The translations under genes and the position numbers were made by a program. Shown piece by piece: positions 1,337 to 25,617 of a DNA stretch of 40,101 nucleotides. The DNA comes from Magnetospirillum fulvum MGU-K5 (lineage in GTDB: Bacteria; Pseudomonadota; Alphaproteobacteria; Rhodospirillales; Magnetospirillaceae). Location of the stretch: positions 1-40,101 of the forward strand of contig NZ_AQPH01000029.1 of assembly GCF_000442515.1 (NCBI RefSeq). The letters are read 5' to 3'. The notes beneath the pieces were generated by a model, which was not told the origin of the DNA, made no database searches, and was given only the letters and a program-made list of their open reading frames with translations. Positions within the stretch are counted from its first letter, which is position 1; every line of letters begins with the position of its first letter.

Positions 1337-2230
1337 TTAGATGTGGAAATTGAAAATGCCGGAATCGAACCGGTTATAATCCTCGTAGCCGAGCAGTTCG
1401 TAGAGGCGGGCGCGGTGCTGCATCCGGTCGAGGATGCTGTCCTGGCTTCCCTCGATCTGAAGGGTCTTCAGGCCCATTTCAGCCGCTCCCATCGCGAGGC
1501 GCAGCAGGGTGACCGGATAGATCACCATGTTGATCCCCAGATTTTGCAGCGTGCGGGCCGACAACAGCTTCGACTTGCCGAACTCGGTCATGTTGGCCAG
1601 CAACGGCGCGGGAATGGCGCGGCGGAACGCTTCGAACTCGCGTTCGTCGGCCATCGCTTCGGCGAAGATCATGTCGGCCCCGGCGTCAAGATAGGCCTTG
1701 GCCCGCTCGATCGCCGCGTCCAGCCCCTCGATGGCGCGGGCATCGGTGCGAGCGCACAGCACGAAATCGGGATCGCGCCGGGCCGAGGCGGCTGCCTTGA
1801 TCCGCCGTACCATCTCGGCGGTCTCGACCACCGCCTTGTTATCAAGGTGGCCGCACCGCTTCGGGTTGACCTGATCCTCGATGTGGCATCCGGCCAGTCC
1901 CAGGTCTTCCAGCATCCGGATGGTGCGGGCGGCGTTCATCGGCTCGCCGAACCCGGTATCAACGTCGATCAGGCTGGGGAGGTCGGTGACGCGGGCGATC
2001 TGGTGGCCGCGCTGCGACACTTCGGACAGGGTGGTCAGTCCGATATCGGGCAGACCGAGGTCGGCCGACAGCACCGCACCGGAGATGTAGATTCCGTCAA
2101 AGCCCTGTTCCTCGATCAGCATCGCCGTCAGCGGCGAAAACGCGCCGGGAAAGCGTTGTAGCTTGCCCGAGGTCAGACCGGAGCGGAACGCCTGCCGCTT
2201 TTCCTTGGGCGTAGACGTGGCGTGCAACAT
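1337..2230 (-). CDS. prpB: 2-methylisocitrate lyase
   Basis: A 297-residue member of the isocitrate lyase/PEP mutase superfamily that cleaves 2-methylisocitrate to pyruvate and succinate, the last step of the methylcitrate cycle. The signature KRCGH (residues 124-128, nucleophile Cys126) and the metal-binding stretch IDVDTGFGEP near residue 90 are intact. The length matches PrpB (about 295) rather than isocitrate lyase (over 400). The start codon overlaps the prpD stop in a TGATG arrangement, so translation is probably coupled. Two-gene neighbourhood with prpD and prpC makes the call firm. Confidence 0.95.
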   Translation of the reverse strand: MLHATSTPKEKRQAFRSGLTSGKLQRFPGAFSPLTAMLIEEQGFDGIYISGAVLSADLGLPDIGLTTLSEVSQRGHQIARVTDLPSLIDVDTGFGEPMNAARTIRMLEDLGLAGCHIEDQVNPKRCGHLDNKAVVETAEMVRRIKAAASARRDPDFVLCARTDARAIEGLDAAIERAKAYLDAGADMIFAEAMADEREFEAFRRAIPAPLLANMTEFGKSKLLSARTLQNLGINMVIYPVTLLRLAMGAAEMGLKTLQIEGSQDSILDRMQHRARLYELLGYEDYNRFDSGIFNFHI

Positions 2231-3732
2231 CAGAAGATTCCCCTGCTGGCTGGCGTCCCCAGACGGGACGGATCGACGGTGAAGCTCAACCCACCCAACT
2301 CACCGGCACCGAGGTCGGGCAGATTCTGGACATGGGCGAGAAAGCGGTCCTGCTCGGCGTCCGGGACAATGCCCTCGGCCAGGGTGCGGAACTTGGCGAT
2401 GTACTGGTCACGGCCGAACGGGCGTGCCCCCAGCGGATGAGCATCGGCAACCGCGAGTTCGTCTTCGATGATGCTGCCGTCCTTCATCACCACCACCACC
2501 CGGCCTCCGAACGCCTTTTCGCCGGGGTCGCTCGAATGATAGCGCTGGGTCCAGGCGGATTCCTCGATAGTGCGGATCTTGTGCCACAGCCGCACCGTGT
2601 CGGGCCGGGCGGCCCGCTCGGGGGCGTAAGACCGTTCGTGGTGCCAGCCGCCATCCTGCAACGCCACCGCGAAAATATACATGATCGAATGGTCGAGTGT
2701 TTCGCGGCTGGCGGTCGGGTCCATCTTCTGCGGATCGCGGGCACCGGTGCCGATCACATGATGGGTGTGATGGCTGGTATGGATCACGATGCTGTCGACC
2801 TGCTCGAAATCGCCGATGCGCGGGCCCAGGCGGCGGGCGAGATCGATCAACGCCTGGCTTTGATATTCCGCCGAATATTCCTTGGTGTAGGTGTCGAGAA
2901 TCGCCCGCTTGGTCTCGCCCGGCTCGGGCAGGGGCACCCAATACTCGGCCTTGGGGCCATCCAACATCCAGGCGATGAAGCCGTCTTCGCCCTCATAGAT
3001 CGGCGAGGGGGCGCCTTCACCCCGCATCGCCCGGTCGATTGCTTCGACCGCCATCTTCCCCGCGAACGCCGGAGCATAGGCTTTCCAGCTCGAAATCTCG
3101 CCCTTGCGCGACTGACGGGTTGTGGTGGTGACGTGCAGCGCCTGCTGCACCGCCTGGAAGATGACCTCGGTCGGCAGGCCGAGCAGGGTACCGATCCCCG
3201 CCGCCGCCGACGGTCCCAGATGGGCGATATGGTCGATCTTGCGCTTGTGCAGGCAGATGCCCTTGACCAGATCGACCTGAATTTCATAGCCGGTGGCGAT
3301 GCCCCGGATCAGATCGGCCCCGCTGCGGCCGCAATGCTGGGCCACCGCCAGGATCGGCGGGATATTGTCGCCGGGATGGGAATAATCGGCGGCGAGGAAG
3401 GTGTCGTGGAAGTCGAGTTCGCGCACCGCGACCCCGTTGGCCCAGGCGGCCCAGTCCGGTGACACCCGCCGCTCGGGAGACAGACCGAACAGGGTCGCAC
3501 CGGGGGCATGGGGATGGGCCAGCGCCTGGGACCGGGCATTGATGACCGGACGACGCGCCAGCGAGGCGGCGGCGACGGCGGCATTGTCGATGATCCGGTT
3601 GACGATCATCGCGGCGACATCCGTCTCGACCGCGACCGGATCGGCGGCGGTTACGGCGATCTTCCACGCCAGGTGATCCTCGCGCCGCAAGGGCTCTTCG
3701 GATCGGTAGGATCTGACCAGATGGGTCTTCAT
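2230..3732 (-). CDS. prpD: 2-methylcitrate dehydratase
   Basis: A 500-residue MmgE/PrpD-family protein that dehydrates 2-methylcitrate to 2-methyl-cis-aconitate. Conserved features include [10 protein letters not shown] and the following [13 protein letters not shown] near residue 120, and [18 protein letters not shown] in the middle. The usual family length is about 480-500. The ATG at 3732 shares its first base with the TGA of the upstream thioesterase gene; a GTG one codon earlier (3735) is an alternative. AGGA lies about 6 nt upstream. Because PrpD is present, no AcnD/PrpF pair is needed; rehydration to methylisocitrate would rely on an aconitase encoded elsewhere. Confidence 0.95.
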
Positions 3733-4139
3733 CACGCGTCCTTGTTGGTTAACGGAATCGGAGCGGCGACAACGGGAACGGGGCGGCCATCGGCATCGAC
3801 CGCGACCATCGCGAAACAGCCCTGGATGGCGAGGCAGCGTTCGCCACTGACCGGGGATTCGGCGTGCATCTCGACCGCGACGGTCATCGAACTGCGACCG
3901 ATCCGTTCGACCCGGGCGACCAGTTCGACCATCTGGCCGACCTTGACCGGGACGCGGAAATCGATCCGCTCGGACGCCGCCATCACCACCGCATGACGGG
4001 CGGCGCGGGTGGCGGCGACAAAGGCCGCCTTGCCCATCAGATTGAGTGCGGTGCCGCCGAACAGGGTGCCGTAATGGTTGGCCTGTTCGGGAAAGATCAT
4101 TTCCACGAACCGGCTTTCGGGAAATCCGGGAAGAGCCAC
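3732..4139 (-). CDS. Hotdog-fold acyl-CoA thioesterase, first gene of the prp operon
   Basis: A 135-residue protein of the single-hotdog acyl-CoA thioesterase family (YciA/BACH-like). The signature [14 protein letters not shown], with the conserved Asn-His-x-Gly-x-x-Phe-Gly-Gly core, lies near the N-terminus, followed by the helix containing [14 protein letters not shown] chose a GTG start at 4139 because AAGGCGGTGA, one mismatch from the ideal ribosome site, sits just upstream; the frame stays open further up, but an ATG at 4190 has no ribosome site and longer versions would run into the divergent regulator gene. It overlaps prpD by one base, so it belongs to the propionate operon. The substrate is unknown; hydrolysis of surplus propionyl-CoA or methylcitryl-type CoA esters is an inference from context only. 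Confidence 0.85.
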
Positions 4140-4292
4140 GCCGTCACCGCCTTTGCCTAAAAGAGGGGGCTTGCCGCCCGCCCTGAACATTTGCAATTCT
4201 ACGCATCCCGGAACGGCGCATAACCCCTGAAAAGGCGGAGATTTGCGAGCGAACTTCCGGGCTGTTGCGAAGATTGCGAAGGATCGTGGTGA
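4140..4292. promoter_or_regulatory. Divergent prp operon/mccR control region with TTGC(A/G)A boxes
   Basis: This 150-bp divergent region contains four TTGCRA boxes: TTGCAA at 4191, TTGCGA at 4243, and TTGCGAA at 4265 and 4274. The last two form a direct repeat with 9-bp periodicity immediately upstream of the regulator gene. Regulators of the ScfR family (RamB, PccR, MccR) are known to bind TTTGCAAA-like half-sites, so these are candidate operators for the neighbouring regulator. Site function is inferred. Confidence 0.5.
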
Positions 4293-5720
4293 ATGCGGAA
4301 GGCGTATATGGGCGCGCGGTTGCAGCGCCTGCGCGAGGAACGGGGAATGACCCAGGCGACGCTGGCCCGCACGCTGGGGTTGTCGCCCAGCTACCTCAAC
4401 CAGCTTGAACGCAACCAGCGTCCATTGACCGTTCCGGTGCTGCTGAAGATCAATGCAACGCTGGGAATCGATGTCCAACTGTTCTCGGAAGACGAAGAGG
4501 CGCGGCTGATCGCCGATCTGCGCGAGGCGCTGGCGGACTCGGGCACCGGCGAAACGATCCCGCTCGGCGACATCAAAAGCCTCGCCACCGGATTACCGAC
4601 GATTGGACGTGCCCTGGTCGCGTTGCACCAGCGTGGCCGGGCCACCGACGACCGTCTGGTTGCCTTGGCCGCCAGCCTGGGCGCTCCGGCCGATCAGTTG
4701 ACGGCAACGGCGCGTCCGGCGATGCCGTATGAAGCGGTTCGCGACTATTTTTACGACCGCCACAACCATGTCGCGGAACTGGACGAAGCCGCCGAACAGC
4801 TCGTCGAAGCCTGCGGTTTGTCGATTGGGGCGATGGATGAAGGGCTGGAACGGCTGCTGTTCGATCGTCACCGCGTCCGCACCCAAATTCCGACAGACGG
4901 TGATCTGGCCCCCGGCGAGCATCGCCGCTTCGATTCCGATCAGCGGATTCTCCGGCTGGCCCGCTCGCTTCATCCGGGGCAGCGCGCCTTTCAGATGGCG
5001 ACACAACTGGCCTTTCTCGAACAGGCGGAGCTGATTGACCGGCTGACCGATTCGCCCCGTCTTTCGGGGAGCGAATCCCGCTCCCTGGCCCGGATCGGGT
5101 TGGCCAATTACTATGCCGGGGCGGTTCTGCTGCCCTATCGCGATTTCCTCGCCACAGCGGAGACGCTCCGCTACGACATTGATTTGCTCGGAGAACGGTT
5201 CGGGGTCGGCTTCGAAACGGTGTGTCACCGTCTCTCTACTCTGCAACGTCCGAATGCCCGTGGCGTGCCATTCTTTTTCGTCCGGGTCGATCGGGCGGGG
5301 AACATTTCGAAGCGCCAGTCGGCGACCGACTTCCACTTCTCTCGCGTTGGCGGCACCTGCCCACTGTGGAATGTCTATGAGGCGTTTGCCAGCCCCGACC
5401 GCGTTCTGACCCAATTGGCCCAGATGCCCGACGGCCGCACCTATCTGTGGATCGCCCGCACCGTGGCGCGTAATGCCGGCGGCTATGGCCGTCCGGGCAA
5501 GAGCTTCGCCATCGGCCTGGGCTGCGACCTGCGCCATGCCGGACGGCTGGTCTATGCCCGTGGGCTCGATCTGGCCGATCCCGCCGCCGCGATTCCGATC
5601 GGGGCGGGCTGCAAAGTGTGCGAGCGGCCATCCTGTCCGCAGCGAGCCTTTCCGCCGATCGGCCGGACCCTGCTGGTCGATGAGCGTCGCAGCCAGTTCG
5701 AGCCCTATCCGGCGGCATGA
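4293..5720 (+). CDS. mccR: XRE/ScfR-family regulator of the methylcitrate cycle (MccR-like)
   Basis: A 475-residue DNA-binding regulator. The N-terminus (about 10-65) is an XRE helix-turn-helix with MTQATLARTLGLSPSYLNQLE. The middle resembles the IrrE/ImmA-like domain of ScfR proteins, but LANYYAGAVLLPY lacks the metalloprotease HEXXH motif. The C-terminal domain ends with a cysteine cluster, GCKVCERPSCPQRAFPPIGR, conserved in short-chain fatty acyl regulators; in mycobacterial PrpR the corresponding region holds an iron-sulfur cluster. Relatives sense acyl-CoA and control prp or pcc/mut genes. Divergent placement against the prp operon supports an MccR role, though PccR-like control of mutAB 10 kb away is also possible. 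An alternative ATG at 4308 has a better ribosome site (GGAAGG). Confidence 0.85.
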   Translation: MRKAYMGARLQRLREERGMTQATLARTLGLSPSYLNQLERNQRPLTVPVLLKINATLGIDVQLFSEDEEARLIADLREALADSGTGETIPLGDIKSLATGLPTIGRALVALHQRGRATDDRLVALAASLGAPADQLTATARPAMPYEAVRDYFYDRHNHVAELDEAAEQLVEACGLSIGAMDEGLERLLFDRHRVRTQIPTDGDLAPGEHRRFDSDQRILRLARSLHPGQRAFQMATQLAFLEQAELIDRLTDSPRLSGSESRSLARIGLANYYAGAVLLPYRDFLATAETLRYDIDLLGERFGVGFETVCHRLSTLQRPNARGVPFFFVRVDRAGNISKRQSATDFHFSRVGGTCPLWNVYEAFASPDRVLTQLAQMPDGRTYLWIARTVARNAGGYGRPGKSFAIGLGCDLRHAGRLVYARGLDLADPAAAIPIGAGCKVCERPSCPQRAFPPIGRTLLVDERRSQFEPYPAA

Positions 5721-5821: not shown

Positions 5822-8104
5822 TCAGGCCAGTTCGGCCCGCAGGCGATGAGCCGCCTCGACCATGTTCACCAGCGAGGAAATCACCTCGCCCCACCCCCGC
5901 GTCTTCAGGCCGCAATCGGGATTGACCCACAGCCGCTCGGCCGGAATCCGCTTGGCCGCCAGTTCCATCAGGGCGACGATGTGATCGACCTCGGGAATGT
6001 TGGGCGAGTGGATGTCGTAGACGCCCGGACCGATTTCGTTCGGGTAGGCGAAATCGACGAAGGCGTCGAGCAGGTCCATATCCGAGCGCGAAGTCTCGAT
6101 GGTAATGACGTCGGCGTCCATCTCGGCAATCGACGCGATGATGTCGTTGAACTCGGAATAGCACATGTGGGTGTGAATCTGGGTTTCGTCGGCGATTCCG
6201 GCCGAGGTCAGGCGGAAGGCGGCTACCGTCCAGTCAAGATAGCTCTGCCAGTCGCGCCGCCGCAGGGGCAGGCCTTCGCGGAACGCTGCTTCGTCGATCT
6301 GGATGATGCGGATTCCCGCTTTCTCCAGATCAAGCACCTCGTCGCGCAACGCCAATGCAAGCTGCTGGCAGGTCACCGAGCGGGGCTGATCGTCACGGAC
6401 AAACGACCAGTTGAGCACGGTCACCGGCCCGGTCAACATGCCCTTCATCGGCTTCGTCGTCAGCGATTGGGCATGAACGGCCCAGGCAACTGTCATCGGC
6501 GCGGGCCTGGTCACGTCGCCATAGATGATCGGCGGCTTGACGCAGCGCGAACCATAGGATTGCACCCAACCGTTCTGGGTAAAGGCGAACCCGTCCAATT
6601 GTTCGCCGAAATATTCGACCATGTCGTTGCGTTCCGGCTCGCCGTGAACCAGGACGTCGAGGCCGATATCCTCCTGCTTGCGAACCACCAGGGCGATTTC
6701 ATCCTGCATCCGCTGGACGTATTCGGCCTCGGACAGAGTTCCGGCTTTGACGTCACGCCGTGCGGCGCGAATCGCGGCAGTCTGCGGGAACGAGCCGATC
6801 GTGGTGGTCGGGAACGGCGGCAGCTTCAGCCACGCTTTCTGCTTCGCCGCCCGCACCGGATAGGGCGACGTGCGATGTCGCATCGAGTCCGTCACCGCAT
6901 CCAGCCGCGCGGTCACCTCGGGGCGATGAAGGCGCGGCGATGCCCGCCGGGCCGCCAGCGCCTCGCGCGATGGACGCAGCAACTCGACCGCCGCAATCCC
7001 GCCCTGATCGAGCGCTTGTTTCAATGTCTGAAGCTCGTCCAGCTTCTGCGCGGCAAAGGCCAGCCACGAGCGAAGATCGGGCTCCAGCGCGGTCTCTTCC
7101 GCCAGATCGACCGGGACATGCAGCAACGAGCAGGACGGGGCCAGCCACAGCCGGTCGCCCAGCACACCCCGCATCAGCCGCACCCGCTCCAGCGCCGCGT
7201 CGAGATCGGTGCGCCAGATGTTGCGGCCGTCGATCAGTCCGACCGAAAGGATTTTCGGAGCATCAAGCCGGGCGGCAACCGCCTCGGCTTCGATTCCGCT
7301 CCGCACCGCGTCGATGTGGAGCCCATCGACCGGCAGATCAGCCGCGATCTTCAAGGCATCATCAAGCGGACCGAAATAGGTGGCCAGCAGAACCTTCAGT
7401 CCCTCGACCCGCAGCGCGGCATAGGTCGGAGCGTAAATGTCCTTCCAGGTCTGGGGCAGGTCGAGCGCCAGGGCCGGTTCGTCGATCTGGACCCAGTCTA
7501 CCCCCTGACGCTTCAGTTCGGTCAGGATGTCGCGATAGACCGGCAACAGCGCGGGCAGCAGATCAAGGCGGTCGAACGGTGCGCCCTTGACCTTGCTCAG
7601 CCACAGCCACGTCAGCGGACCGAGCAGAACCGGCTTGGCCTTGTGTCCCAACTCGGTTGCCTCGGCGACCTCGTCGAACAGTTTCTCCGAAGCCAGTCGG
7701 AACGTCTGTCCGGCATGAAGCTCCGGCACGATGTAATGGTAATTGGTGTCGAACCACTTGGTCATTTCGCAGGCGGATACCGGCACGCCACTCGGCGCAC
7801 GGCCGCGTGCCATCCGGAACATCGTGTCGAGATCGACCCGGTCGCCCGTCCAGCCAAAGCGCGGCGGCACCGCACCCAGCATCGCCGACAGATCAAGCAC
7901 ATGATCGTACCACGAGAAATCGCCGACCGTGACCATGTCGAGCCCCGATGCCGCTTGGCGGGCCCAGGCGGACGCACGCAGATCCCGTCCGGTCGCGGCC
8001 AGGGTCGCAGAATCGATCTCACCCTGCCAATAGCTTTCAACGGCCTTTTTCAGCTCGCGCCGGGGACCGATGCGCGGAAATCCGAGAACGTGACTGACGG
8101 TCAT
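5822..8104 (-). CDS. metE: Cobalamin-independent methionine synthase
   Basis: A 760-residue zinc enzyme transferring a methyl group from methyltetrahydropteroyl-triglutamate to homocysteine without B12. The N-terminal half starts with the typical [18 protein letters not shown]. The catalytic C-terminal half shows zinc ligands in HTHMCYSEF (His and Cys), a Glu in [14 protein letters not shown] and the final Cys in [13 protein letters not shown]. Length matches the E. coli enzyme (753). The start ATG is preceded by AGGGA. It is divergently transcribed from metR, its usual activator. No cobalamin riboswitch is evident in the short upstream region, although the window also encodes B12-dependent mutases. 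Confidence 0.97.
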
Positions 8105-21573: not shown

Positions 21574-24102
21574 TCACTTTCGCTTCGCCAGGGTTGGGGG
21601 AAGGCGTCCGAGCCGTAAATAGGTGGTGATTTCCGCCGCCGGCAGGGGGGGAGAGAACAGGAAGCCCTGGAGCATGTCGCACTCATAGCCGGTCATCGTC
21701 GCCAGTTGCGCCTCGGTCTCGATTCCCGGCGCGACCACCAGGATGTGCAGGCCATGGGCCACCGCGACAATGGCTTGGATCACTTCGGCATTGCCCGAAC
21801 TCCCGGCGGGGTCGCGGACAAGATCCTGGCTGATTTTCAGGGTATCGGTCCGCACCTGACGCAACAGGCTGAACGACGAATGGCCCGAACCGAAATCGTC
21901 GATCGCGATACCGACCCCCAGCGCCTTCAGGCTGGCGAACTGGGCGTCGGTATCCGGCTCCCTTTCGGTCAGGCAGCTTTCGGGCAGATCGAGTTCCAGG
22001 ATAGACGCGGGCAGGGCATATCGGTCCAGGGCCTCCTGGATATCGGCGATCAGATCGGCGGAGTGGAATTGGTGCGGCGACAGATTCAGGCAGACTCGCG
22101 GCGGCGCGATCCCCTGATCCAGCCACGATCGGGCCTGACGGCAGACCGAGTCGAGCGCCAGACGGCCAATCGGCAGGATCAGCCCGGTTTCCTCGGCCAG
22201 GGGCAGGAAATGATCCGGGAGCATCATGCCGATTTCGGGGTGATGCCAGCGCAACAAAGCCTCGACCGCCGCGATCTGGCCGGTATCAGCGGCGAAAACC
22301 GGCTGGTAATAAACCTCGAACTGGTTGCGTTCGACGGCGAGGCGCAGCGCGTTTTCCAGCCCCAGCCGCTCGAACGCCTGGGCGTAGACGGATTCGGAAT
22401 GGAAGCGGCAGGCGTTGCGGCCCTGATTTTTCGCCTGATACATCGCGGCGTCGGCCAGTTTGATCAGGGTCTGGGTGTCTTCGGCGTCGGTGGGGTACAG
22501 GGCGACGCCGATCGAGGCGCTGATCCGCGCCTCGTGCCCCTGGAGGTCGAACGGCTCGGCCATCAGCGACAGGATTTTCTGGGCGACGACGGCGCTGTCA
22601 CGGGCCTCGGTGATGTCTTCAAGGATTACGGTGAATTCGTCCCCGGCCAGCCGGGCGATGGTGTCGCCCTGACGCACGCAGGAGGACAGGCGGTCGGCCA
22701 CGTGCTGCAACAGGCAATCCCCGGCCAGATGACCCAGCGTGTCGTTGACCTGTTTGAAATGGTCGAGGTCGATGAACAGCAAGGTCACGATCGAGTGGTT
22801 GCGATGGGCACGGGTCAGCGCCCGCGACAGCCGTTCCAGGAACAAGGTGCGGTTGGGCAGCCGGGTCAGCGGGTCGTGGTTGGCCTGATAGCTGAGGCGC
22901 TCCTCGTCTTCCTTGCGTGAGGTGATGTCAGAGAACACCGCGACGTAATGGGTCAATTGGTCGCGCTCGTCGCGGACTTCGGCTATGTTCAGCCACTCGG
23001 CGAACATTTCGCCGGTCTTGCGCCGGTTCCACATCTCGCCTTGCCAGCGCCCGGTGTTGGCCAGACTCTCGTTCATCCGGTCATAGAATTCGGGGGAATG
23101 ACGCCCCGAGGCGAGGATGCGCGGTGTCTTGCCCAGCACGTCCTCGGGGGTATAGCCGGTCAGTACGGTAAAAGCGGGGTTGACGTGGATGATCCGCCGC
23201 CGGTCGTCGGTGACGAACAGGCCTTCGCCGGTATTTTCGAACACCGTCGCGGCAAGGCGCATGTGATCTTCCAGCCGCTTGGTCGCGGTTACGTCCTCGA
23301 CCACGGCGACGGCGCGGTGGAGATGGCCAGCTTCGCCATCGCGGATCGGGGTGACGGTCAGACGCCCCCAGCGCACCGTTCCATCGCGGTTCAGGTAGCG
23401 TTTGGTGATGTCGCAACTGTCGATCTCGCCGCCGATCACCTGACGGTACAGATCGCTGACGGCGTCGCGGTCATCGGGGTGAGAGATGTCGCGGAAGGTC
23501 ATCAGATGCAGTTCGGCTTCGCTATAGCCGACCATCGCGCAGAATGCGGGGTTGCTGTGCAGGTAGTGCCCCTCGGCATCGGTCAGGATCACTCCGGCCC
23601 CGGCATTCTCGAACAAAGCGCGGAAGCGCGCCTCGCTCTCGCGCAGGGCGGCATCAGCGCGCGAGCGGCCGATGGCATAGCGGATCGCCCGACGGACCAG
23701 TTCGCCTTCGCCCTGGCCTTTGACCAGATAATCCTGGGCTCCCTGGCGCAGCGCCTCCAGCGCCAGCCCTTCGTCGACGGTCCCGGTCAGCACCACCACC
23801 GGCAACAGAGGCGCCGCCAGCCGCAATTGGGTCAGCCCGTCCAGCCCGAACGAATCCGGCAGGGACAGGTCGAGCAGCACCACATCGACCGGGTGCGATT
23901 TCAGGTAATCAAGGGCTTCGGACAGGAAACTGACGCAGGTGACGGTAAAAGGCCGCGCCCGATCCTCCTCCAGATACGCCTTTACCAGGCGCGCATCTCC
24001 GGGATTGTCCTCGATGACCAGGACCGACAGAACCGGAAGGAGAGCGGGCGGGGCCATGGCGGCGCGGCCGGTCAGCGGGGAGGCAGCGTCACCACCGAAC
24101 AC
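21574..24102 (-). CDS. REC-PAS-PAS-GGDEF-EAL signalling protein
   Basis: An 842-residue cytoplasmic protein. Domains in order: response-regulator receiver (about 25-140, acceptor Asp in [10 protein letters not shown]), PAS (155-275), PAS (285-400), GGDEF (405-570) and EAL (585-830). The cyclase signature reads AGDEF, a tolerated variant. The EAL domain keeps EALLRW and DDFGSGHSS, but the usual AEGVE reads APGIE (Pro near residue 792) and LKID reads LKIS, so phosphodiesterase activity is doubtful. No membrane segment. Start GTG at 24102 has GAGGA 6 nt upstream and overlaps the preceding regulator gene by 31 bp; an ATG at 24057 is the alternative. Probably makes cyclic di-GMP in response to phosphorylation and PAS signals. 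Confidence 0.92.
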
Positions 24103-24518
24103 CAATATTCCTCGATCGAGCGTACCACGGCGATGAAGCGATCGAGGTCAACCGGCTTGGTGATGTAGCAATTGGCGTGCAGATCGTAACTGCGCAGGAT
24201 GTCCTGGCCGGCCTGCGAGGTGGTCAGAACCACCACCGGAATGCGGCGGAGTTCGGGGTCTTCCTTCATCTCGGCCAGAACCTGCCGCCCATCCTTGCGG
24301 GGCAGGTTGAGGTCGAGCAGGACCAGATCGGGCCGTGGGGAATCGGCGTAAATGCCTTCGCGCCGTAGATAAGCCATCGCTTCGACGCCATCGACCACCA
24401 CCTTCAGGCGGCTGGTCATTCGCCCTTCCTTCAGAGCCTCCTGAGCCAGACGTGCATCGCCAGGGTTGTCTTCGACCAGGAGAATGTCAAAGGTTTCGGG
24501 TGCGTTCCGTTGACTCAA
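24072..24518 (-). CDS. Single-domain response regulator (Rcp1-like)
   Basis: A 148-residue stand-alone receiver domain. The acidic pocket is at Glu16-Asp17 ([12 protein letters not shown]), the phospho-acceptor is Asp69 in LLDLNLP, followed by Thr99/Thr100 and Lys121 in TKP. No output domain. The long loop before Asp69 and the EDNPGDARL start are typical of Rcp1-type regulators that pair with phytochrome-like or orphan histidine kinases. The start is TTG at 24518, with GGGGAG 6 nt upstream. It is co-directional with and overlaps the GGDEF/EAL gene, whose own receiver domain starts with the same EDNPGDARL, suggesting a shared phosphorelay. Confidence 0.92.
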
Positions 24519-24576
24519 TGGTTTCTCCCCTTCCGGTAAGACTTATCCTTTTGGAGTATAATAGAGGATGCAGCGC

Positions 24577-24613
24577 GTTGGGAACCAACTTGGCGTCGCC
24601 AACGGTTCCCAAC
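24577..24613. repeat. 37-bp inverted repeat upstream of the response regulator gene
   Basis: GTTGGGAACC (24577-24586) and GGTTCCCAAC (24604-24613) are perfect 10-bp arms with a 17-nt spacer. The spacer holds a nested TTGGCG/CGCCAA pair. A TATAAT-like box lies about 15 bp to the left (24557-24562; TATTAT on the minus strand), so the dyad would sit at or just upstream of the promoter of the leftward regulator gene. It may be an operator, or the end of the upstream gph transcript. No T-run follows. Confidence 0.55.
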
Positions 24614-24675: not shown

Positions 24676-25617
24676 CTATGGCGCTTCGGGTGCCAGCCAC
24701 CCGAGACGGGTGAAAACCGGCTGGGCGAGATGATCCAGCTCTTCCGGCGCGCCCTGTTCGAGCCGGTCGAGCAGATCGGCCAGGATAGGCTCGCCGAACA
24801 TCGCGCATTTGCCCCGCATGCCATGGACGTGTTCGTTGAGGGCATTCCGGTCGGGTCCGGCGAGCAATTGGCGCAGCACGGCGCGGTCCGCCGCCATTTC
24901 CCGGACGAACGCCGGTTTCAGGTCGGCCAGTTCCGGCGGCGATGGGGCGAGCCCCAGAACGGACGGCAGGTCGCGGTAATCGTCGATGATCCAGTCCGCC
25001 CCCAACTCGGCGACCGGGCCATGGGCATAGCCGAACGAGACCGCAACGGTGGGCACGCCCGCCGCCCGCGCCGCGGCGATGTCATTATAGGAATCGCCCA
25101 CCATCGCCGCCTGATCGGCGGAAACGCCCAGGCGGTCGAGGATCACCTGGATATGGATCGGGTCGGGCTTCAGCGCGGGGGTTTCGTCGGCACCGACGAC
25201 GACGTCGAAGAAATCGGCCAGCCCCAGCTTGGCCAGCACCACCCGGGTCGCGCCGCTGGGCTTGTTGGTGCAGACGGCGAGCGCCAGACCGGCCTCTTTC
25301 AACAGGGTCAGGGTCTCGATCACTGCGGGCCAGGGACGGGTCAATTCGGCCGAACGCGGCTCGTAATCGGCCAGGAAGCGGCGCAGCAATTCCTCTACCG
25401 GCAGCGCCACGGGGCCTCCGGTGGTCAAAAACGCCTGTTCAACCAGGATCGCGGCACCACCGCCGACCAGCGCCTTGACCGCGTCGGGGGAGAGCGGGGC
25501 GCGGTTCCACGCGGCCAGCATCCGGTTTACCGCCGCCACCAGATCGGGCAGCGAATCGATCAAGGTGCCGTCGAGATCGAACAGGACGGCTCGAGGCGGC
25601 GAGATGAGAAGCGACAT
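24676..25617 (-). CDS. gph: Phosphoglycolate phosphatase-like HAD protein fused to an HPt domain
   Basis: A 313-residue protein with two parts. Residues 1-225 are a HAD phosphatase close to Gph: DLDGTLIDS with Asp14/Asp16, Thr117 in CTNKP, Lys150 in ALKPDP and GDSYND at 174-179. Gph would normally end here (220-250 residues). Residues 230-313 are an added helical domain whose centre, HGMRGKCAMFG (His265), aligns with the HPt signature HxLKGxxxxxG, followed by ILADLLDRLEQGA. That matches stand-alone HPt proteins of Rhodospirillaceae. The ATG at 25617 has GGAAGG 5 nt upstream. It lies upstream of a response regulator and a receiver-GGDEF-EAL gene on the same strand. Phosphoglycolate as substrate is assumed from the HAD part. 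Confidence 0.85.
   Translation of the reverse strand: MSLLISPPRAVLFDLDGTLIDSLPDLVAAVNRMLAAWNRAPLSPDAVKALVGGGAAILVEQAFLTTGGPVALPVEELLRRFLADYEPRSAELTRPWPAVIETLTLLKEAGLALAVCTNKPSGATRVVLAKLGLADFFDVVVGADETPALKPDPIHIQVILDRLGVSADQAAMVGDSYNDIAAARAAGVPTVAVSFGYAHGPVAELGADWIIDDYRDLPSVLGLAPSPPELADLKPAFVREMAADRAVLRQLLAGPDRNALNEHVHGMRGKCAMFGEPILADLLDRLEQGAPEELDHLAQPVFTRLGWLAPEAP

Follow-up and report, generated by a model that had tools for sequence, protein, structure and literature searches.

The gene that runs from 25617 to 24676 on the minus strand of the window (by which is meant the whole stretch of 40,101 nucleotides from Magnetospirillum fulvum MGU-K5 that was analysed) encodes a Gph-type HAD enzyme joined to a genuine histidine phosphotransfer (HPt) domain. 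On balance, and well short of certainty, the reading to be preferred is that this is a real HAD(Gph)-HPt fusion, specific to one clade and produced by the collapse in place of two neighbouring genes, in which the HPt domain would act in relays in trans and gph would serve mainly as its carrier. The gene and its two parts are as follows:

25617..24676 (including stop), minus strand: the gph-HPt fusion gene, an open reading frame of 313 amino acids.
24943..25617, minus strand: the HAD part, of phosphoglycolate phosphatase type (residues 1-225), assigned from HAD_2, TIGR01449, motifs and a PDB fold match.
24676..24942, minus strand: the HPt domain (residues 226-313 plus stop), assigned from Pfam Hpt, a four-helix model, fold ranking and an invariant histidine.

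The original prediction, which gave the gene's span but named no strand, had placed a Gph-like HAD domain at residues 1-225 with an HPt domain after it, and this assignment holds for both parts. For the first, Pfam HAD_2 is found at residues 11-193 (E 2.8e-37), and the fusion protein scores 197.4 bits against TIGR01449 (PGP_bact), for which the cut-off is 180, although it stays below the cut-off of the narrower phosphoglycolate phosphatase model NF009695 (198.9 bits against 225). The HAD motifs that define the phosphoglycolate phosphatase family are intact, namely DLDGT at 14-18, CTNKP at 116, KPDP at 150 and GDSYND at 174. The window's genome holds five other matches to a Gph-type HAD, each at 36% identity or less, and the HAD of the fusion protein is the sole close match of this type; in the preferred reading it stays a phosphoglycolate phosphatase, this being its predicted activity. 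For the second part, Hpt (PF01627) is matched at residues 236-290 with 34.8 bits when the whole protein is scanned, and with 37.7 bits in a scan of the 88-residue tail by itself (the profile check that had been proposed for it), the cut-off being 24.6 in each case.

Structure prediction, which had also been proposed, gives the expected four-helix bundle. The AlphaFold model of the whole fusion protein (mean pLDDT 90.5, pTM 0.77, made from an alignment of 29 rows of which 3 span both the HAD and HPt parts) consists of the HAD part and four C-terminal helices at 228-253, 257-273, 277-288 and 291-308, with His265 inside the second, and the tail modelled by itself reaches a pLDDT of 92.2. When the whole chain is searched with Foldseek, places 1-5 are taken by structures titled phosphoglycolate phosphatase (the top match, 2hsz_A, is titled as a predicted one and has an E-value of 9.2e-18), while for the tail HPt domains fill ranks 1-7 (including 3myf, 7c1i, 1wn0, 2ooc and 3iqt, at probabilities of 0.96-1.00 and TM of 0.52-0.76), with E-values that are weak (0.12 and up) and with designed four-helix bundles appearing from rank 13. 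A sequence search of the PDB with the tail gave nothing significant, the best E-value being 0.69 for a non-HPt protein and that of the BarA HPt 1.1. The possibility that a chance helical tail had been mistaken for an HPt domain was considered and rejected, since profile, fold and conserved histidine all agree.

The candidate phospho-acceptor is His265, which lies within HVHGMRGKCAMFG of the HPt part; its numbering (in HGMRGKC), like that of Asp69 in the receiver discussed below, is as originally given. Conservation of this residue among homologues was one of the points on which the original prediction had chosen to stand or fall, and it is complete: the histidine is invariant in all 20 rows of alignment A1, composed of HPt sequences collected by similarity with the histidine not a search requirement, and the same residue is present in the extension of all three species that carry the fusion. 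Alignment A4 has it in 22 of 22 rows, yet all of these except the window's come from a pattern scan that required it. Of the 13 positions of HVHxMRGKCxMFG, the block around the histidine, 11 are identical across the three fused proteins, as against 32 of 77 in the remaining linker and HPt (Fisher p 0.006, with 4 gap columns left out of the count).

Some features of this HPt subfamily may be recorded here in their own right. The RGKC that follows the histidine is unusual, and its cysteine is likewise invariant in the 20 rows of A1 (the 22 rows of A4 are uninformative on this, the scan having required RGKC); exceptions outside A1 are L110 and L113, which have RGKA, and L109, from a genome that is itself represented in A1, which has GGKC. 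In the family's other genera the subfamily is found at the end of histidine kinases, as a stand-alone protein, or after a lone REC, according to Pfam typing of chosen HPt proteins (sets of 8 and 4); some of the kinases have a 7TMR-DISM part, and in two of these the HPt lies just below the Pfam cut-off. Across the order, the HPt profile has matches at 1e-4 in 72 of 317 genomes. One further 7TMR-DISM-HisKA-REC-Hpt protein (L076) belongs to a record titled Stygiobacter sp. (Ignavibacteriota), and its HPt groups in the tree with that of Magnetospirillum sulfuroxidans; the record is probably mislabelled, or a mixed bin.

A survey of how widespread the fusion is, and of whether the receiver genes beside it stay adjacent, had been called for. 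The spread proves to be narrow: the full-length fusion is present in 3 of the 17 genomes of the genus, namely the window's, M. fulvum DSM 13234 and M. molischianum DSM 120, the latter two being the only fusions among the 22 loci given by a contig scan with one peptide pattern, [AV]H[AG]MRGKC (L080, a locus whose contig is cut upstream, was left out of alignments A2 and A4). No stop interrupts the fused frame in any of the three species. As to adjacency, the receiver genes follow gph in the three fused genomes only and do not do so in any of the 14 others. Scans of the class (385 genomes, of which 211 gave a match at 1e-30) and of the phylum (398 genomes, of which 7 did so at 1e-60) showed, among the matches listed, only the window's own extending to the HPt end; these are weak as surveys, the other two fused genomes being missing from the tables of both samples, and a phosphatase fused to a different HPt subfamily would probably have been missed by them.

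The remark that no described system of such architecture was known agrees with the literature searched. Searches on the HPt domain together with phosphoglycolate phosphatase returned no description of a HAD-HPt fusion, those combining HPt, haloacid dehalogenase and phosphorelay returned only a fungal redox study (PMC5371717, from the portion available), and broader searches, by the titles among the matches listed, likewise yielded no such fusion. As regards published HPt surveys, the words “hydrolase” and “phosphatase” are both absent from the accessible part of one (PMC4709007), and in the accessible part of another (PMC4558063) the former is absent and the latter occurs twice. To judge from sequence, the fusion is a genuine enzyme-HPt protein of one small clade.

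The gene order in the 14 congeners that lack the fusion is informative as to its history. In 12 of them gph is unfused, with a divergent glmU beside it, and the next gene on its strand has an HPt of the same kind at its end (for one of the 12, G013, this order was read across a contig gap), and the gene in question was typed by Pfam in G008 as PAS-GGDEF-EAL-REC-Hpt; the exceptions are G007, in which the HPt gene is elsewhere, and G012, which has none. The fused gene sits at the junction between gph and the HPt gene of these congeners, its HAD is complete, and its HPt part begins where the congeners' HPt begins. What most likely happened, as inferred from this synteny, is that the fusion arose in place through loss of the body of the second gene: gph and the downstream PAS-GGDEF-EAL-REC-Hpt gene would have collapsed in frame, the sensor, cyclic-di-GMP and receiver domains being lost and a complete phosphatase, a short linker and the HPt remaining. 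In G002 the gene after gph (L041:4416-5741, 442 amino acids) keeps only part of a GGDEF domain, REC and Hpt, possibly an intermediate of the kind of loss that the fused species show. No copy of the ancestral gene was found elsewhere in the fused genomes, either by its receiver domain or by HPt profile; the receiver that precedes the HPt in congeners has a best match of 47% or less in the three fused genomes, as against 64% in G009, and G012, which is without the HPt gene, resembles the fused genomes in this respect.

It is synteny, not the tree, that supports joining in place. In an HPt tree of 28 rows (from which loci of already represented genomes, and L080, were left out) the three fused HPts group together (97/92), their common stem being long (2.14 changes per column). 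This group is not placed inside the genus's other HPts but joins, with weak support (78/80), two stand-alone HPts that are themselves on long branches; a tree uniting the fused HPts with those of the genus is not rejected (p-AU 0.395), HPt trees being too short and too long-branched to place the clade.

The HPt part is still under purifying selection. Pairwise comparison of the three fused species by Nei-Gojobori yields a dN/dS of 0.11-0.13 in the HAD part and of 0.23-0.36 in the HPt part; with a synonymous distance of 0.9-1.2 in the fused HPt, these values are rough. Where this kind of HPt still belongs to the signalling gene of the congeners, dN/dS is 0.045-0.45 (28 pairs from 8 genomes). 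Constraint was therefore not lost when the fusion arose, and with values of this order the fused HPt is unlikely to be a decaying leftover. It does diverge faster than the HAD: the other two fused species are 64% and 57% identical to the window in the HPt, against 90% and 86% in the HAD, and because of this faster change, together with the long stem, it may be that the function of the HPt has shifted since the fusion.

These observations can be turned to the support of a different account, one we think unlikely without finding it negligible, in which an accidental deletion joined the HPt to gph and the domain has since been carried along passively, taking part in no relay and kept because its removal would destabilise the enzyme. 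A small clade, a long stem, an HPt diverging faster than the HAD and a built-in receiver that has gone would all suit it. However, the constraint on the HPt is within the range found in a working context, it is concentrated on the phosphotransfer block in the proportions given above, and the frame has stayed open, without a stop, in three species. A decaying read-through tail was set aside on this constraint and on the open frames in the three species, and is retained as a rival.

In the reading we prefer, that of an HPt relaying in trans, the domain would have kept its phosphotransfer chemistry and lost its built-in receiver, and His265 would now act in trans: some hybrid kinase's receiver would supply it with a phosphoryl group, which it would pass to a free receiver. 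The most convenient candidate recipient would be the single REC next door, which is paired with a REC-PAS-PAS-GGDEF-EAL protein; the HAD would remain a phosphoglycolate phosphatase that mainly carries the HPt and sets its abundance and place, and the state of the HPt could possibly modulate the enzyme. A relay of similar shape, leading from the CdgK receiver to an HPt and thence to the CdgS receiver, is reported in the available text of PMC9927289. Points to be counted against the preferred reading are the receiver pair's own upstream block and its distance, the faster change of the HPt, its placement in the tree, and the presence of 14 other HPts able to serve the same receivers. The downstream features concerned are these:

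24072..24518, minus strand: a single-domain REC of 148 amino acids with acceptor Asp69 and a TTG start, the candidate partner (Response_reg, 1.1e-18).
21574..24105, minus strand: a REC-PAS-PAS-GGDEF-EAL protein, 843 amino acids from its first start, the candidate relay output (Pfam).
24555..24584, minus strand: a promoter-like site, TTCCCA-18-TATACT, 5' of the receiver gene (consensus match only).
24696-24667, minus strand: a second promoter-like site, overlapping the end of the fused gene (consensus match only).

The original prediction had a relay partner at hand in these two genes, and it stands to the extent that both are real, on the same strand and downstream of the fused gene. It does not stand as regards their being specific companions: the pair occurs in all 17 genomes of the genus (adjacent in 16; split between two contigs in G014), and although it follows the fused gene in each of the three fused genomes, in all 14 of the others it lies on other contigs than gph or at 0.7-2.0 Mb from it (G009, G011, G016), while the window's genome contains 15 HPt domains over the Pfam cut-off, the fused one and 14 others. 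For the larger protein, the part similar to M. fulvum starts at residue 16; in its translation the GGDEF motif reads AGDEF, and EALLRW is intact. The single REC is strikingly conserved, at 97-99% identity among the three fused species and 88-93% in the rest of the genus, and its dN/dS among the fused species is 0.006-0.025.

In 13 of the 14 non-fused congeners (G013 being the one absent from this upstream reading, in which 40 loci were read, 8 genomes twice) the region 5' of the receiver gene has a related block, made up of GGTTTTCAACCGG or a variant of it and then TATAGT, and this block may be a regulated promoter. Its presence in congeners as well suggests that the pair brought a promoter of its own; no terminator-like site was seen between the fused gene and the downstream genes. 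The idea that the latter form a fixed partner operon with the fused gene was rejected, the pair being away from gph in all 14 non-fused genomes and having its own promoter-like block. The block (at 24555-24600 in the window, and 5' of the receiver gene in loci L114-L121 and L137-L163) is found in the genus and, in looser form, in related genera, with TATAGT alone in L182 and L183.

Across the order a match to the REC at 1e-50 is found in 69 of 317 genomes, and among the 20 of these receiver loci that were read a gene with REC and GGDEF parts resembling the window's is nearby in 16, with partial likeness in 2 and none in 2. A PAS-HisKA-HATPase-REC-Hpt kinase stands directly before the receiver homologue in G196 (one of those 20) and in G195 (read separately), and a cut REC-Hpt frame some 2.8 kb before the receiver gene in G189; the HPts of all three match the fused HPt weakly. 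Because such REC-Hpt proteins precede the receiver gene, it is plausible that receiver and HPt are relay partners, and for the fused HPt in particular the case for the downstream pair may be called suggestive. A separate observation concerns L182 (G023, from another genus of the family), where gph (7184-7825, plus strand) lies no more than about 2.4 kb from the receiver pair (receiver 4366-4809 and a REC-PAS-GGDEF-EAL-like gene at 1841-4315, both minus strand), on the opposite strand and with no HPt match between; this proximity could be due either to chance or to an older link.

Rather than the enzyme being mainly a carrier, it is conceivable, if rather improbable, that the relay controls metabolism, phosphorylation of His265 altering the activity or stability of the HAD and so tuning the removal of 2-phosphoglycolate made by Rubisco. 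It is in favour of this that the only close Gph-type HAD in the window's genome is the one joined to an HPt with an intact His block, that both domains are under purifying selection, and that a gene of the RuBisCO large-subunit family (which also holds Rubisco-like proteins) is present in all three fused genomes, owing to which 2-phosphoglycolate may well be made in the fused species. Against it, the HAD is the slower-evolving of the two parts, an HPt domain generally acts as a passive carrier, and in congeners enzyme and HPt are separate proteins, so that neither needs the other. Form II Rubisco of P. molischianum has already been used in print (PMC8106553, as far as the accessible portion goes).

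A much less probable notion is that the HAD acts as a phosphate sink, taking up or hydrolysing the phosphoryl group of the attached HPt and so switching the relay off. HAD phosphatase catalysis proceeds via a phospho-Asp, and with both domains on the same chain the local concentration would be high. The mammalian phosphatase LHPP is also a HAD phosphatase. It has been reported to act on phosphohistidine, which counts for the notion, but evidence of its action on folded proteins is limited (both according to the available part of PMC12687438), and the HAD considered here scores as an ordinary phosphoglycolate phosphatase and matches structures of such enzymes. It is doubtful whether phospho-His265 couples cyclic-di-GMP signalling to the removal of 2-phosphoglycolate, be it by tuning of the HAD or with the phospho-Asp as an in-built off-switch for the relay.

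HPt domains usually occur on kinases or as stand-alone proteins, and to find one joined to an enzyme that removes the product Rubisco makes when it reacts with oxygen gives the fusion much of its significance. In addition, close relatives still show both the likely ancestral gene order and the derived one, which allows a direct comparison of a receiver-HPt signalling protein with the enzyme-HPt fusion that came after it. Set beside Gph/CbbZ (TIGR01449), the fused HAD is alike in scoring above the family cut-off, in its HAD motifs and in having as its best folds structures titled phosphoglycolate phosphatase, but the fused protein differs in its C-terminal HPt and in falling below the NF009695 cut-off. 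With HPt proteins (PF01627; for example those of a Shewanella hybrid kinase, 3myf, of HptB, 7c1i, and of BarA, 3iqt) it shares score, four-helix fold and His block, the difference being that here the HPt is on a metabolic phosphatase, not on a kinase or alone, and is of the HxMRGKCxMFG subfamily. The congeners' PAS-GGDEF-EAL-REC-Hpt protein encoded beside gph has the same kind of HPt in the same genomic place, whereas the fused species lack, at this place, its sensor, receiver and cyclic-di-GMP domains. Finally, the Anabaena CdgK-CdgS system, as described in the available text of PMC9927289, is similar in having an HPt and a cyclic-di-GMP-making receiver protein as possible steps; transfer to REC2-Hpt was measured there, and the step to the CdgS receiver is stated in the discussion. 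In that system, however, the HPt is part of the kinase, whereas here it is carried on a phosphatase.
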